In this document: one piece after another, positions 4,148 through 9,503 of the stretch
Position numbering within the stretch: the first letter of the stretch is position 1
How the letters are laid out: every line of letters begins with the position of its first letter
Origin: a virus
IMG/VR virus record: IMGVR_UViG_3300044608_002724
Location: 1-26,487 of that record
Direction: 5' to 3' (one strand)
Length of the DNA: 26,487 nucleotides
The notes under the pieces: generated by a model
What the model saw: the letters and a program-made list of their open reading frames with translations, nothing else
Database searches by the model: none
Told to the model about the DNA's origin: nothing
Translations under genes and position numbers: made by a program

Positions 4148-4177
4148 ACTTTGGTTCTAAATATAGCGGAGGTTTTT

Positions 4178-5251
4178 ATGGCTGTTCTGAAAAATTACAA
4201 TAGAGAATATCACGATCTTCATCTTTTTTCCCCCTCTGTTTCATTCAACCCAAAAGCAGATGGAGTGCCAATAGCATATAATTTAAATTGTGCTGCCGCG
4301 AAACAGAATGTTGATTTTTCTGGTTGTGCTACAAAAAATCAAAGATTCAATAATAGATCTACTTTTGTACCGACAGATCATGAAAATATAAATTATTGGA
4401 ATAACGGTTACTTTGCTGCAGTGTTAATAACACCAAAGCATGCATTGATTTGTCAACATTATTATGCAGCAATTCCCTCTCAAGTGAATCAATTGAAATG
4501 GCTTGGTAAAAGCGAACAGACACATTCAAGAAAAGTTAAATCATCAAAACATTTTAGTCCATACGATGTTCGTCTTGTTGAATTCGAACAAGAATTTCCA
4601 GCAGACGATATTAAAATATATTCAAGAATAGCAGATGTTCGTTATATTCCCAGAGACACTGAGATGTGGATGCAAGATGGACAATGCAGAATATACAGAA
4701 CAAAACTCAAGGAAAGCAGAACAACTAATAATACAGTTGCTGGAGATCCTACAACTTGGTCTTTAAAACCTTATCTAGACGATGGATTAGGATTAAATGA
4801 GGGAGTACAACCATTTGGTCTAACCGGAACATATTCTCCTAATGTTTTTTCTGGAGACAGTGGCTCACCTACATTTGTTTTGGATAAGACAGGTGATACT
4901 ATTTTGGTTGGGCTTGCATATGGTGGACACATTATTCCGCCTGTATTACTTGAAATGTTAAGAAAAGAAGTAGGCAATCAATATCCACTAGAATATGTGA
5001 AGATTTCTGCAAAACTTGGAGATTTTAATCAAGATGGTAAAGTGGATGCTGCAGATCAAACCACTTTATTGTCAAGTTGGTCAATGGATAACAATATGTG
5101 TGATTTAAATAATGATGGTATTGTAGACGGACAAGACATGGGAATATTAATGGCAAATTGGGGAGAATATGAAATGGAAAATTCTGTGTTCATAGGCTCT
5201 GTCCAACCCCCAATTATACCACCAATAAATCAACCAGTAAAACCAAAATAA
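4178..5251 (+). CDS. Trypsin-like serine protease with C-terminal dockerin domain
   Basis: A 357-residue protein; ATG 4178 is chosen because GCGGAGGT (4167-4172) lies just upstream. A chymotrypsin-fold triad can be read: H94 in ALICQHYY, D130 in SPYDVRLVEFE, and S228 in FSGDSGSP. Residues 280-331 form a type I dockerin: two calcium-loop repeats, GDFNQDGKVDAAD and CDLNNDGIVDGQD, each followed by a short helix, the second ending ILMANWGE. Dockerins bind cohesin domains and calcium. The tail (QPPIIPPINQP) is a Pro-rich linker. There is no signal peptide, consistent with a virion or cytoplasmic protein, or one released by lysis. Sharing a dockerin with the neighbour at 5362 suggests both are assembled on the same scaffold. 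Its role (virion maturation, host surface digestion or anchoring) is not determined. Confidence 0.8.
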   Translation: MAVLKNYNREYHDLHLFSPSVSFNPKADGVPIAYNLNCAAAKQNVDFSGCATKNQRFNNRSTFVPTDHENINYWNNGYFAAVLITPKHALICQHYYAAIPSQVNQLKWLGKSEQTHSRKVKSSKHFSPYDVRLVEFEQEFPADDIKIYSRIADVRYIPRDTEMWMQDGQCRIYRTKLKESRTTNNTVAGDPTTWSLKPYLDDGLGLNEGVQPFGLTGTYSPNVFSGDSGSPTFVLDKTGDTILVGLAYGGHIIPPVLLEMLRKEVGNQYPLEYVKISAKLGDFNQDGKVDAADQTTLLSSWSMDNNMCDLNNDGIVDGQDMGILMANWGEYEMENSVFIGSVQPPIIPPINQPVKPK

Positions 5252-5255
5252 TAAT

Positions 5256-5393
5256 ATGAGCAGAAAACACAGTGCCGGTAAAGGTGATAAATATAGAAAA
5301 GTAGACTACAAAAAATGGTCAGAAAATTGGGATAAAATTTTCTCAAAGAAAAGGAAAAAAAATGCCAACACAAATAACCCACGCAGCAAATAA
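5256..5393 (+). CDS. Small basic protein, 45 aa
   Basis: ATG 5256 lies 4 nt after the protease stop and the ORF overlaps the start of the next gene by 32 nt. The product begins MSRKHSAGKGDKYRKVDYKK and continues WSENWDKIFSKKRKK, a pattern (GDKYR.V.Y..W..NWD.IF) that I recall from other T4-like phages, which argues that it is real. It is very basic. It contains a late-promoter-like GATAAATA (5286-5293). There is no good ribosome-binding site of its own; re-initiation after the protease is likely. Function unknown. Confidence 0.55.
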   Translation: MSRKHSAGKGDKYRKVDYKKWSENWDKIFSKKRKKNANTNNPRSK

Positions 5394-7815
5394 AGTAACT
5401 TATAAATGGACTTTTAATCAAGATGTTCAGGGCGGAACATTCTGGGATGGAAGTCCATATATCATAAACACAAACGGTCTAAAACTTCTCAATGTAGAAA
5501 TGATAACTGAACACGGAACAGAGGGACCGAATAGAGTTATTTCTGATATTGAGCTTGGATACAACAAAAAAGTAGGATTCAAAGGAGAATTGTATATTAA
5601 TGGATTGATGAAAAATCCACAAGGAATGATTGATACTTCTTCAACGGGTCAACAAAGAGATAAAAATTATGCATTTGACTCAAGAAGTTTTAGTGCATTT
5701 GATCGAGGTTGGCTTCCTTTCAGACAAGTAATAGATCCTGTAACTAAAAGAAAAGTTAAAATACCTCGTCCCACAAATGAAGATTCTTCATACGCTTCTT
5801 TCAATTTAACTAAATTTTTAGAAACAAAATCTCAACTAGAAAGTGGTGGAATAGGTGTTACTACTGGAGATGTTTTAGTTGTTCAGTGGTCCAACTTTAA
5901 TATAAATTCACCTTCTGCGTGGAATGTAAATCGAGCCCAGGGTTTTGCTTATCAAAGAATCACCAGTAGATCTTGTTGCTTATCATACGGAACTTTGTTC
6001 GTTTTAAATGCTCATCCAGATGGAGTTAGTTCAGGATCTAATTATTTTAGACCTCCAGTTGTTTGGCCAGATAATCTGACCGCAAACAGACCAATTTTTG
6101 CAGTTTCTGCAATAACAGAGCGTCTTCCTGAAGTTGGTGAATTAGTACAAAATCCAACTACAAAACAAAAAGTTACAAATTATTCAAATGACCCTTCATT
6201 TAAGACTTTTTGTTACGGTATGCCCTTTGGTAATGGAACAAATTATTCTCAAGCATTACCACTTTATTCTGGAAGTATAGATGGGACTATTTCTGCATAT
6301 GGAGCATATTATATAAATCCCCTGATGAGTCGTCTGATGACATTATATTCAACAGAGACACAAGCACTTCCAGGAAGTCAAAGACTTCAAAATCTTAAAG
6401 TTATAGTTCAATGGGGAATTGATGCATATGGTTCTATTAAATCATATGCTTCTACCGCCAGTGGAGCTGGACAAAAACCATGCTCTGCTCGTCCTTGGTC
6501 TGTAATTGCTGGTTATTTCTTAAATGAAACTGCCCTGCGTCAACCAGAAACCACAATGATTGCAGATACTGTTAGATTAAATGGTTTATTGTTAAATTCC
6601 GGAGGACAAATAGAAAGTGATGAAGGAGACAGTGAAACAGAAATTCCTTCAAATGAAAAAATGGTCGATCTTTATGGAAATCCATACGCAGCAGGTGATG
6701 AAGGAACTGCTGCGAAGAAAAGATGGCTTGCACTTAGAACATCACTAGAAGCAATTTGTTACTACAAAATTGTAGATAGACCGGGAAGTGTTCTTGATTA
6801 TAGAACTTTAGGATCAACTCATAGAAGAACTTTTTCGGGTATCGGAGCAAATTTACAACAAACAGATCCAAATTTAGAATTTGCATTGCCCGGTGATAGA
6901 TTCAGAGCCGGAATTTCTACCTTTAAAGGGACGATGGCAAAAATTCAATGGAATACTGTTCCTGAAGATTTAAAAACTGGATGGGCTGCAACACATGATG
7001 GAAAATCAACAACATTTTGGTACACTTATATTAAAGTAACTTCTGGTCCTGGAGCAGGGGATACACTTTATAGAATTATAAAATCATGGGGTAATTTCAG
7101 ACAAGCAATACCAGATAATGAAACAAATGCCACTGGTTATGGATTTATTTTAGACAAACCTTGGCAACATGGACAACCAGATCAATCATCTACATTTGAA
7201 ATGATTACATGCACAGATAGAAATGTAGGAGAAGTTTTTTATCTGATCGGTCCAACTAGATTTAAAACAATGGCAGATGCAAACTTATCACCACATACCG
7301 TTTATGGAGAAATCTGCGAGCCTTCTGTTACTATATTATACGGTTGGATGAATTATATTGAAAGAGAAAAATTAAGTGGAATAAATCCAGATTTGGATAA
7401 AGGTTCTGTGTTGACTCATGACTATGTTCAAAAAATAGTAAATTCTAGTCCATACAAATGGTCAAATTACAGCACTTCTGGTGATTATATTGGATCTAGA
7501 CCATGGCAGGCTGCTATTTTGAACAAATGGTATAATAAACCAACTAGTCGTGCTGGACAGGCAGCAACTATTGATTGGAGAACATTACAAGGTGTTGAAT
7601 ATTGGCATGGCATAACAACTGATGATTATAGAGATACAGCATTGCCAGGGGATTTTAATGACGATGATGAAGTTAACGATCTCGATGTTCAAATGTTTGC
7701 AAATCAATTAGTTACTGAACAATATGGTGTGACATATGATTTAAACAACGATGGCGTAATTGATATAACCGATCTGAAAATACTGGTTAATGACTATTAC
7801 GGAAAAACTCAGTAA
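5362..7815 (+). CDS. Large dockerin-bearing protein, probable virion or secreted factor
   Basis: An 817-residue protein with AAAGGA before ATG. I do not recognise residues 1-755: they are rich in Tyr, Trp, Asn and Gly, beta-structured in appearance, with no signal peptide or coiled coil, and fit a large virion surface or fibre-like protein. The last ~57 residues are a dockerin: loop 1 GDFNDDDEVNDLD (the usual Gly is replaced by Asp), then loop 2 YDLNNDGVIDITDLKILV with all calcium ligands. It forms an operon with the dockerin protease upstream. The C-terminal position of both dockerins suggests docking on a cohesin partner not present in this window. A strong promoter for the next gene begins 6 nt after the stop. 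Confidence 0.75.
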   Translation: MPTQITHAANKVTYKWTFNQDVQGGTFWDGSPYIINTNGLKLLNVEMITEHGTEGPNRVISDIELGYNKKVGFKGELYINGLMKNPQGMIDTSSTGQQRDKNYAFDSRSFSAFDRGWLPFRQVIDPVTKRKVKIPRPTNEDSSYASFNLTKFLETKSQLESGGIGVTTGDVLVVQWSNFNINSPSAWNVNRAQGFAYQRITSRSCCLSYGTLFVLNAHPDGVSSGSNYFRPPVVWPDNLTANRPIFAVSAITERLPEVGELVQNPTTKQKVTNYSNDPSFKTFCYGMPFGNGTNYSQALPLYSGSIDGTISAYGAYYINPLMSRLMTLYSTETQALPGSQRLQNLKVIVQWGIDAYGSIKSYASTASGAGQKPCSARPWSVIAGYFLNETALRQPETTMIADTVRLNGLLLNSGGQIESDEGDSETEIPSNEKMVDLYGNPYAAGDEGTAAKKRWLALRTSLEAICYYKIVDRPGSVLDYRTLGSTHRRTFSGIGANLQQTDPNLEFALPGDRFRAGISTFKGTMAKIQWNTVPEDLKTGWAATHDGKSTTFWYTYIKVTSGPGAGDTLYRIIKSWGNFRQAIPDNETNATGYGFILDKPWQHGQPDQSSTFEMITCTDRNVGEVFYLIGPTRFKTMADANLSPHTVYGEICEPSVTILYGWMNYIEREKLSGINPDLDKGSVLTHDYVQKIVNSSPYKWSNYSTSGDYIGSRPWQAAILNKWYNKPTSRAGQAATIDWRTLQGVEYWHGITTDDYRDTALPGDFNDDDEVNDLDVQMFANQLVTEQYGVTYDLNNDGVIDITDLKILVNDYYGKTQ

Positions 7816-7894: not shown

Positions 7895-8674
7895 ATGAAG
7901 AAGTTTGCAACTGTATTGTCTGGATTGGCAACTTCGGTCGCTTTGGCGGGTGATCCTGCCCCGGCAGCGAAGTCCACTCTGGGCGATCTGAAGTTGGACT
8001 TTGGTGCGGAGGCATCACTGTACAACTTCAAGGGAAACGGCGGGTCGATCCTTGCTGTCGTGCCTGAACTTGAAGTTCATGGCTTGGCAGATGGGCTCGT
8101 TCTTTTTGCTGAACTCCCCGTGTACGGAGACGATAATCTTACCAACACCACTGGTCTTGGTGATCTTCGTCTTGGTGCTTCTGTTCGCGTCGTTCAAGAG
8201 GCTACTGAATTTGGTGCCGCTTGGCTTGATGTGAACGCCGGTGCTGAAATTCCCACCGCTGGTGGTGAACTCGGTTCTGCAAATGTGAACCCGTTTGTCG
8301 GGTTTGTTTTCGGTCTCGATGAGGTTGCGAAGTCAGAGTTTGACTTCACTCAAACCTTCGAGTACAAGTTTGTCGGTGGTCCTGCATTCAATCCCTACCT
8401 CGGTGGGCAAACTGATGCAGACATCATCTTTATGCGTACGGATCTCTCGGTTCCTGTTTGGGGCGATGCACTCGTTGGTGCCGTCACCGTCAAGCAGAAC
8501 TACACCGTTGATCCGGGTGAGCAGCAGCTCTTCGTTGGACCCAGCCTCGTCTGGAAGCCAACTGCTGCGGCTACCGTTGACTTTGGAGTAGATCTTCCAG
8601 TGTGGCAAGACCTCCAATCCTTCCGTCCTGAGAACAACTGCGTTGTTTCTGGCGGGATTACTATCAACTTCTGA
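7895..8674 (+). CDS. Phage-encoded outer-membrane beta-barrel protein
   Basis: A 259-residue protein starting at ATG 7895 behind GGAGA. It has a classic signal peptide (MKKFATVLSGLATSVALA, cleavage after A18). The mature part is a run of amphipathic strands with Gly/Asp turns (LVLFAELPVYGDDNLTNT, LRLGASVRVV, FDFTQTFEYKFVGG, TVDFGVDLPVW), and it ends in a terminal Phe (GGITINF), the usual signal for the BAM insertion machinery. It is predicted to sit in the host outer membrane. It has its own strong promoter and terminator and uses host-like, GC-richer codons, unlike the flanking late genes, so it is probably an early or recently acquired gene. By analogy with lambda Lom or phage-encoded porins it could alter receptors, permeability or superinfection; that is speculation. 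Confidence 0.8.
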   Translation: MKKFATVLSGLATSVALAGDPAPAAKSTLGDLKLDFGAEASLYNFKGNGGSILAVVPELEVHGLADGLVLFAELPVYGDDNLTNTTGLGDLRLGASVRVVQEATEFGAAWLDVNAGAEIPTAGGELGSANVNPFVGFVFGLDEVAKSEFDFTQTFEYKFVGGPAFNPYLGGQTDADIIFMRTDLSVPVWGDALVGAVTVKQNYTVDPGEQQLFVGPSLVWKPTAAATVDFGVDLPVWQDLQSFRPENNCVVSGGITINF

Positions 8675-8931: not shown

Positions 8932-8940
8932 AGAGTTGTT

Positions 8941-9014
8941 ATTCCCGTAGCTCAATCGGATAGAGCAACGGTTTTCTAAACCGTTGGTTACAGGTTCGAG
9001 TCCTGTCGGGAATG
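8941..9014 (+). tRNA. tRNA-Arg (UCU)
   Basis: Acceptor ATTCCCG/CGGGAAT, discriminator G. D arm GCTC...GAGC, anticodon stem ACGGT/ACCGT with loop TTTCTAA (anticodon UCU), T arm ACAGG-TTCGAGT-CCTGT. It reads AGA, which dominates Arg codons in the late genes. No CCA is encoded. Confidence 0.95.
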
Positions 9015-9015
9015 T

Positions 9016-9088
9016 GCGGGCGTAACTCAGTTGGTAGAGTGATAGCCTTCCAAGCTATATGTCGAGGGTTCAAATCCCTTCGCCCGCT
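9016..9088 (+). tRNA. tRNA-Gly (UCC)
   Basis: Acceptor GCGGGCG/CGCCCGC, discriminator T. Anticodon stem ATAGC/GCTAT with loop CTTCCAA (anticodon UCC), T arm GAGGG-TTCAAAT-CCCTT. It reads GGA. It is separated from tRNA-Arg by one base. Confidence 0.95.
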
Positions 9089-9148
9089 TTCCTAAATACT
9101 GTGTCGAAGGTTGGAATGAGAGTTAAACTTTTACCATGGAGGTACACT

Positions 9149-9403
9149 ATGTTTGGACTTGGTTATAGAACTACATCGTATGCATTTGCAGCTGCTGCTG
9201 GATTCCTTATTCTTGCTGGACAAGCATATCACAAGTTTGCTTTTGCAAGTCTTGTGTGTGCTCTTATCCTTGCCTATCTGAAGATCAACGAAGAAGTGGA
9301 TGATCGTCGTAATGATTGGAACAATCGTCGCGTAGACGACCTGGATGACATGGTTCACCGCGAACTTTCAAATCTTCAGGTGAACAAGGCTGATCGCAAG
9401 TGA
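9149..9403 (+). CDS. Small membrane protein, 84 aa
   Basis: ATG 9149 has a strong GGAGG (9138-9142). The N-terminal half has two hydrophobic stretches (YAFAAAAGFLILAGQAY and FAFASLVCALILAYL), probably a membrane hairpin. The C-terminal half is highly charged (NEEVDDRRNDWNNRRVDDLD) and could form a cytoplasmic helix or coiled coil. It is embedded between tRNA-Gly and tRNA-Glu, so it is expressed from the tRNA promoter; a CTAAATA (9094-9100) upstream may be a weak late promoter. No family recognised. Confidence 0.75.
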   Translation: MFGLGYRTTSYAFAAAAGFLILAGQAYHKFAFASLVCALILAYLKINEEVDDRRNDWNNRRVDDLDDMVHRELSNLQVNKADRK

Positions 9404-9409
9404 TTCAAC

Positions 9410-9425
9410 GCCGGGGAAACCCGGC
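9410..9425 (+). other. GNRA-capped RNA hairpin between a CDS and tRNA-Glu
   Basis: GCCGGG-GAAA-CCCGGC: six G-C-rich pairs closed by a GAAA tetraloop, 4 nt before tRNA-Glu. No T-tract follows, so it is not a terminator. It could protect the 3' end of the upstream mRNA after tRNA processing. Confidence 0.5.
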
Positions 9426-9429
9426 AAAC

Positions 9430-9503
9430 GCTCCCATAGATTAACCGGCTAAATCCCCGCCCTTTCAAGGCGGTGACTCGGGGTTCGAGTCCCCGTGGGA
9501 GTA
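9430..9503 (+). tRNA. tRNA-Glu (UUC)
   Basis: Acceptor GCTCCCA/TGGGAGT (one G-T), discriminator A. Anticodon stem CCGCC/GGCGG with loop CTTTCAA (anticodon UUC), T arm CGGGG-TTCGAGT-CCCCG. The D arm is GATT...AATC. It reads GAA. No CCA is encoded. Confidence 0.94.

Follow-up and report, generated by a model that had tools for sequence, protein, structure and literature searches.

A dockerin-bearing serine protease, probably of chymotrypsin fold, in a T4-like genome and its recurrence in uncultivated phages

Dockerins, calcium-dependent docking domains usually borne by secreted bacterial proteins, are textbook components of bacterial enzyme scaffolds. For freshwater Planctomycetes, a passage of one study proposes, as a hypothetical model, a cohesin-dockerin peptide-degrading complex termed the "planctosome" (PMC6461901). 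On the phage side, a passage on VvAW1 likens its gene 40 to a dockerin type I protein (PMC3558961), and an excerpt of another paper presents a phage protein structurally similar to a cellulosomal module (PMC5967307); dockerins in bacterial genomes are discussed in part of a further source (PMC9377139). The full-text literature on phage, virion and viral-contig dockerins and on Planctomycetes cohesins, a body to which subscription journals are mostly external, yielded no description of a protease-dockerin phage fusion. No such fusion is described in the passages retrieved on virion-associated trypsin-like phage proteases, and a full-text search with the same bias against subscription journals returned no paper on phages of Planctomycetes.

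The stretch of DNA analysed here (the window) is the whole of a 26,487-base IMG/VR virus record. Profile searches of the window match the gp32, gp53, gp25, gp6-like and T4_baseplate families, bearing out the original prediction of a T4-like genome, and its gp6 is closest to that of cyanophages, at 28% identity. Five tRNA genes (Gln, Ile, Arg, Gly and Glu) are located at 2751-2932 and 8940-9503. The motif TATAAATA, searched for as a late promoter with one mismatch allowed, occurs 74 times where 69 occurrences would be expected; it was set aside.

The reading frame at 4178-5251 (plus strand) encodes a protein of 357 residues without a visible signal peptide, composed of a predicted trypsin-like (chymotrypsin-fold) serine protease and a C-terminal type I dockerin. 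The intact His-Asp-Ser triad proposed for it is found at the predicted residues: His94 (codon 4457-4459, motif ITPKHALICQHYY), Asp130 (4565-4567) and Ser228 (4859-4861, motif GDSGSP), all on the plus strand and each invariant in 9 of 9 aligned members. The Dockerin_1 domain (PF00404) spans 5015-5152 on the same strand, with calcium loops at 5021-5056 and 5102-5137. C-terminal to it is a Pro-rich tail (5165-5248, plus strand) with basic residues toward its end, which is found in the family.

The C-terminus of the protease is a type I dockerin, an identity that is well supported. Dockerin_1 scores 23.7 bits on residues 280-325, against a Pfam gathering score of 22.9, and 26.6 bits in a search of the whole record. 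The loops at residues 282 and 309, both of 12 residues, match D-x-[DN]-x-[DN]-G-x-[ILVF]-[DNSTG]-x-x-[DE], in agreement with the complete two-loop dockerin that had been proposed. Among relatives, Dockerin_1 reaches 25.7 bits in L004, 35.9 in L006 and 33.7 in L121, whereas EF-hand models score at most 18.5 bits in L004 and L006, against cut-offs of 25 or more; a misread set of generic EF hands, or no dockerin at all, is thus contradicted. Two canonical calcium loops are present in 11 of 11 protease members scanned, and the NCBIfam GC-type dockerin model NF041540 matches only under its cut-off.

The catalytic region lies outside the common sequence models. A single protease sequence finds no protease family in Pfam, PHROGs or the PDB, and a three-row profile (A1) retrieves nothing from the PDB. 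Pfam Trypsin and Trypsin_2 give no match at E ≤ 10 for three protease members, so the comparison with trypsin models suggested alongside the original prediction came back empty even at this threshold. The term trypsin-like therefore holds for the fold, as judged from family profiles, but not for membership of a Pfam trypsin family, and we call the protease S1-like and place it outside these families. At E ≤ 0.01, A1 gives three matches in 294 Planctomycetota, three in 240 Verrucomicrobiota and two in 247 Bacteroidota genomes, about the number expected by chance. Two of the three Planctomycetota and two of the three Verrucomicrobiota matches are protease-like (L092, L093, L110 and L111), as is neither of the two from Bacteroidota. 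L092 matches Pfam Trypsin_2 over the cut-off and L110 under it; L093 and L111 show no Pfam trypsin match. The motif GDSG[GSA]P lies downstream in three of the five A1 matches driven by the His region (L093, L110, L111, L113 and L114), against a background of 1 in 1,073 and 1 in 166 reading frames of 120 residues or more in other loci.

Profiles with more members reveal the probable fold. A6, built from phage members and cellular relatives and thus including L092, itself a trypsin, gives 57 PDB matches at E ≤ 1, all of chymotrypsin fold by name (trypsin/chymotrypsin-type serine proteases, or complement and IgA-protease chains), with V8 protease at the top (E 6e-4). Removal of L092 and L110 (A7) leaves six matches of the same fold at E ≤ 10, the best at only E 0.27. 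The decisive step is A12, composed of phage members alone, which matches the haemoglobin protease Hbp at E 0.0046 and also trypsins; of its ten PDB matches at E ≤ 10, one is a kinesin and the other nine are serine proteases of the chymotrypsin fold. The Hbp and nsp4 matches are taken by us to represent the chymotrypsin fold. A12 further aligns with the Planctomycetota protein L093 at 97% probability across the His, Asp and Ser regions. A structure prediction made from a 3-row alignment has a mean pLDDT of 28.8. On these profile matches, the identity of 4178-5251 as a serine protease, probably of the chymotrypsin fold (S1-like), is well supported.

When IMG/VR was scanned with A9, an alignment of mixed dockerins, at least 39 loci were returned, three of them on contigs already known. 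The same protease-dockerin, at 353-359 residues, is encoded in at least eight of the other 36 (L121, L124, L131, L138, L141, L149, L150 and L151); since these eight were found via the dockerin, its presence in them is partly a product of selection. Together with the window, L003, L004, L005/L008 and L006/L010, the family occupies at least 13 IMG/VR contigs. The alignment of nine sequences (A10) leaves out copies (L003, whose protease DNA is identical to the window, and L005/L008, identical to L004) and near-copies (L141 and L151); across it, identity to the window goes down to 37%, and the triad (H94, D130, S228), GDSGSP and the principal residues of the calcium loops never vary. Across 17 virus records, A12 detects no stand-alone member without a dockerin. 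Its match in record G006 (E 4.6e-8) is one domain inside a 901-residue frame, behind repeats that we take to be RCC1-like and adjoining a presumably terminase-like gene. The 126-kb phage record G006 (L007/L016, L160) also encodes Gly-rich proteins in which dockerin-like calcium loops abound. By hydropathy only, a hydrophobic start is seen in 0 of 11 protease members; it is present in the L142 subtilase, the L134 secreted dockerin protein and outer-membrane proteins. Among 50,697 GenBank phages, the protein has no match at E 0.01 and its dockerin a single match at E 6. The fusion is therefore unusual, as first claimed, in GenBank phages, but it recurs on the contigs of uncultivated phages listed above, in which other proteins bear dockerins too.

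The dN/dS ratios of the window against L004 and L006, by a simple Nei-Gojobori method and with synonymous sites near saturation, are 0.085 and 0.106 for the catalytic region and 0.102 and 0.129 for the dockerin; judged from these values, the protease-dockerin is under purifying selection. Its locus is shared by five contigs and flanked by T4-like genes, and its GC3 is 0.20, compared with 0.22-0.23 for gp6 and a 1684-residue tail protein. In the close relative L009, window positions 4148-5261 are replaced by about 39 bases between conserved flanks. From this alignment, the protease is a clean one-gene cassette, and its absence from L009 argues that it is not essential. A small Lys-rich reading frame between the protease and the next gene (window about 5256-5390) is kept in protease-less L009. 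Directly upstream of the protease in L010, and only there among relatives, is a 618-residue repeat protein (L010:870-2726), and the slot looks hypervariable.

The gene that follows (5362-7815, plus strand) encodes an 817-residue protein, termed X, with a Dockerin_1 domain at its C-terminal end (7645-7791, plus strand; 28.2 bits), the first loop of which is non-canonical in the window allele. X of the window form occurs in eight contigs (the window, L003, L004, L008, L009, L010, L024 and L025), with the protease in five and without it in three; L004 ends before the X dockerin. In L003/L009, L008 and L010, the dockerin of X is below the Pfam cut-off or reaches it only with neighbouring sequence. 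The DNA of the window and L003 is identical at 5250-5449 and 93-100% identical upstream in 300-base steps; within X, identity is ~70% from about codon 30 and 94-98% again at 7800 (stop). X of L003 is identical to X of L009. Conservation of X is lowest in the dockerin (57, 55, 38, 38 and 33% against L003/L009, L008, L010, L024 and L025, respectively), and the first 90 residues are the most conserved, or tied, in each of the five comparisons with the window. Such a pattern of conservation and alleles is usual for host-recognition proteins, and X, which exchanges alleles in the manner of receptor-binding proteins, is probably a tail or host-recognition protein.

In L025-L027, a capsid-like gene is followed by a paralogue of X, and the C-terminus of the L026 protein matches tail tube family phrog_45 (E 4.9e-25). 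In L024-L027, the paralogue is either fused to the tail tube or followed by the tube gene, and a domain of 800 residues on the tube is sterically puzzling. The two genes need not occur together: X was not seen close to the protease in any of eight distant loci. A pattern scan of GTDB genomes returned no relatives of X, and in 294 Planctomycetota genomes the dockerin part alone matches, in four. The X structure prediction has a mean pLDDT of 48.4, and its Foldseek search gave no match at E ≤ 0.001 in the PDB or BFVD. Beyond X, 7895-8674 (plus strand) encodes what is probably a barrel protein of the outer membrane, its start resembling a signal peptide. Barrels of this type are also encoded in L024, L149, L150 and L151; the gene is positioned 3' of X in the window and 3' of the protease in L149-L151, and the product may block receptors. 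Behind the barrel gene in L009, on the minus strand, is a Cys-rich protein of 1,058 residues (L009:9668-12844) that is absent from the window.

Dockerins are carried by other phage proteins as well. A 2,148-residue baseplate-wedge/virion structural protein (L122:2274-8717; phrog_17744, E 6.8e-52) contains an internal dockerin, and L142:3735-5153 encodes a secreted subtilase, to which we attribute a Peptidase_S8 match from its sequence, with a C-terminal dockerin and T4-like capsid- and tail-tube-like genes adjoining. Among the matches listed, Dockerin_1 is found at E 0.01 in 21 of 26 viral dockerin reading frames (36 minus 10 copies). Six T4-like contigs (L133, L134, L135, L136, L140 and L148) encode ~250-residue proteins that combine an uncharacterised domain with a dockerin and look secreted where the start is present. 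The L133, L136 and L148 proteins resembled cohesins by eye; this was rejected, with an hhalign probability of 6% and nothing relevant in the PDB.

Cohesin (PF00963) is absent from seven phage records at E ≤ 1, most of them fragments, and from four further records at E ≤ 0.01. The cohesin search that accompanied the original prediction thus returned nothing in 11 phage records, mostly fragments, which weakens the case for a phage-encoded dockerin partner. In bacteria, cohesin scores over the cut-off in 4 of 18 Planctomycetota genomes that bear dockerins. Within the class to which the Phycisphaerales record G007 belongs, it does so in a minority, 25 of 198 genomes, which makes a host-encoded partner possible. 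Similar dockerins in GTDB are from Planctomycetota by title in 36 of the 54 matches listed, including all of the best nine, a share that is only suggestive because the phylum is rich in dockerins. Considering these matches, the cohesins in the phylum and the proposed planctosome, the host is probably a member of Planctomycetota or their relatives.

We infer the place of action, partner and substrate of the protease as follows. No signal peptide is visible and the dockerin would need extracellular calcium, so the enzyme would work outside the cell, reaching it by carriage on the virion or by release at lysis. There the dockerin would tether the enzyme to a partner. The likeliest one is a cohesin, or a protein resembling one, exposed on the cells of a Planctomycetota-like host; a partner on the virion is less likely. 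Held in this way, the protease would trim host surface proteins at adsorption and entry or at release and exit. The dockerin-tagged neighbour X would share the same anchor. We assign this reading, a virion-borne or lysis-released protease held on the host surface, a probability of roughly 0.4. A competing account, which we regard as doubtful, holds that the dockerin, acquired together with a secreted host protease, only stabilises or displays the enzyme in a calcium-dependent way; freed by lysis, the enzyme would degrade surface or debris proteins with no cohesin involved. It accords with the lack of cohesin matches in 11 phage records, mostly fragments, and with the scarcity of cohesins in the class (25 of 198 genomes), even though dockerins are common in Planctomycetota. 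It does not sit well with a fusion and two calcium loops that are kept at 37% identity to the window, or with dockerins on several unrelated phage proteins, which look like a shared targeting need.

Two adjoining dockerin-tagged genes in a T4-like genome and the dockerin of the L122 baseplate-wedge protein would instead suit a cellulosome-like virion, with the protease anchored through a cohesin-like fold of a phage protein invisible to Pfam; this is unlikely given the cohesin-free records (seven at E ≤ 1 and four at E ≤ 0.01, mostly fragments) and the dissimilarity of the secreted L133/L136/L148 dockerin proteins to cohesins (hhalign 6%). Even less probable is an intracellular protease that processes phage structural proteins, a role for which the unseen signal peptide and the structural genes of the T4-like genome speak; the clean loss of the cassette from L009 tells against it, as does the dockerin, since a calcium-binding domain of this type fits the cytoplasm poorly. 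That dockerins are common in Planctomycetota could also mean that a bacterial gene sits on a mis-binned contig or that the calcium loops match by chance, but the T4-like flanks, the synteny of the locus in five contigs, the same family on at least eight more and the phage-like codon composition (GC3 0.20 versus 0.22-0.23) make such an artefact highly implausible. The surface-held protease, our preferred reading, also has a wider form, in which a T4-like phage group took over the host dockerin-cohesin system and uses the host scaffold as both receptor and anchor. Dockerins on the protease, X, the baseplate-wedge protein and others would then latch virions and enzymes onto host cohesins, a scenario that we consider rather improbable.

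The protease fusion and the tail-type dockerins point to a phage way of attaching to cells or arming virions that we did not find described. To our knowledge, the partners of Planctomycetota dockerins are mostly unknown, and phage dockerins are ready-made probes for them; X, in turn, is a candidate for host recognition by phages of Planctomycetota.

Comparison with described systems places each part of the protein near, and apart from, a known family. With chymotrypsin-fold proteases (S1, Trypsin_2 and the SPATE Hbp), it shares the H-D-S order, GDSGSP and a profile match to Hbp, whereas no Pfam trypsin model matches it. With type I dockerins (PF00404), it shares two calcium loops and a Dockerin_1 score over the curated cut-off, and the Clostridium dockerins 1daq and 2mte match the window dockerin at a phmmer E of about 0.001; in contrast to these, it is phage-encoded, belongs to a protein in which no signal peptide is recognisable, and carries A-A and G-Q at loop positions 10-11, where 1daq has S-T. 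The secretion signal that is a trait of cellulosomes and the planctosome is not seen, with a hydrophobic start in 0 of 11 members (hydropathy only). A dockerin-like protein of a phage had already been mentioned in the passage on VvAW1 gene 40, which names no protease and is set beside the window protein by description only (PMC3558961). The planctosome, as presented in the passage on it, likewise ties peptidase activity to dockerins outside Planctomycetota cells, with the host's own metallopeptidases in place of the phage serine protease of the window (PMC6461901). The conserved fusion suggests that these T4-like phages fasten an enzyme to the surface of the host through mimicry of its own docking system.
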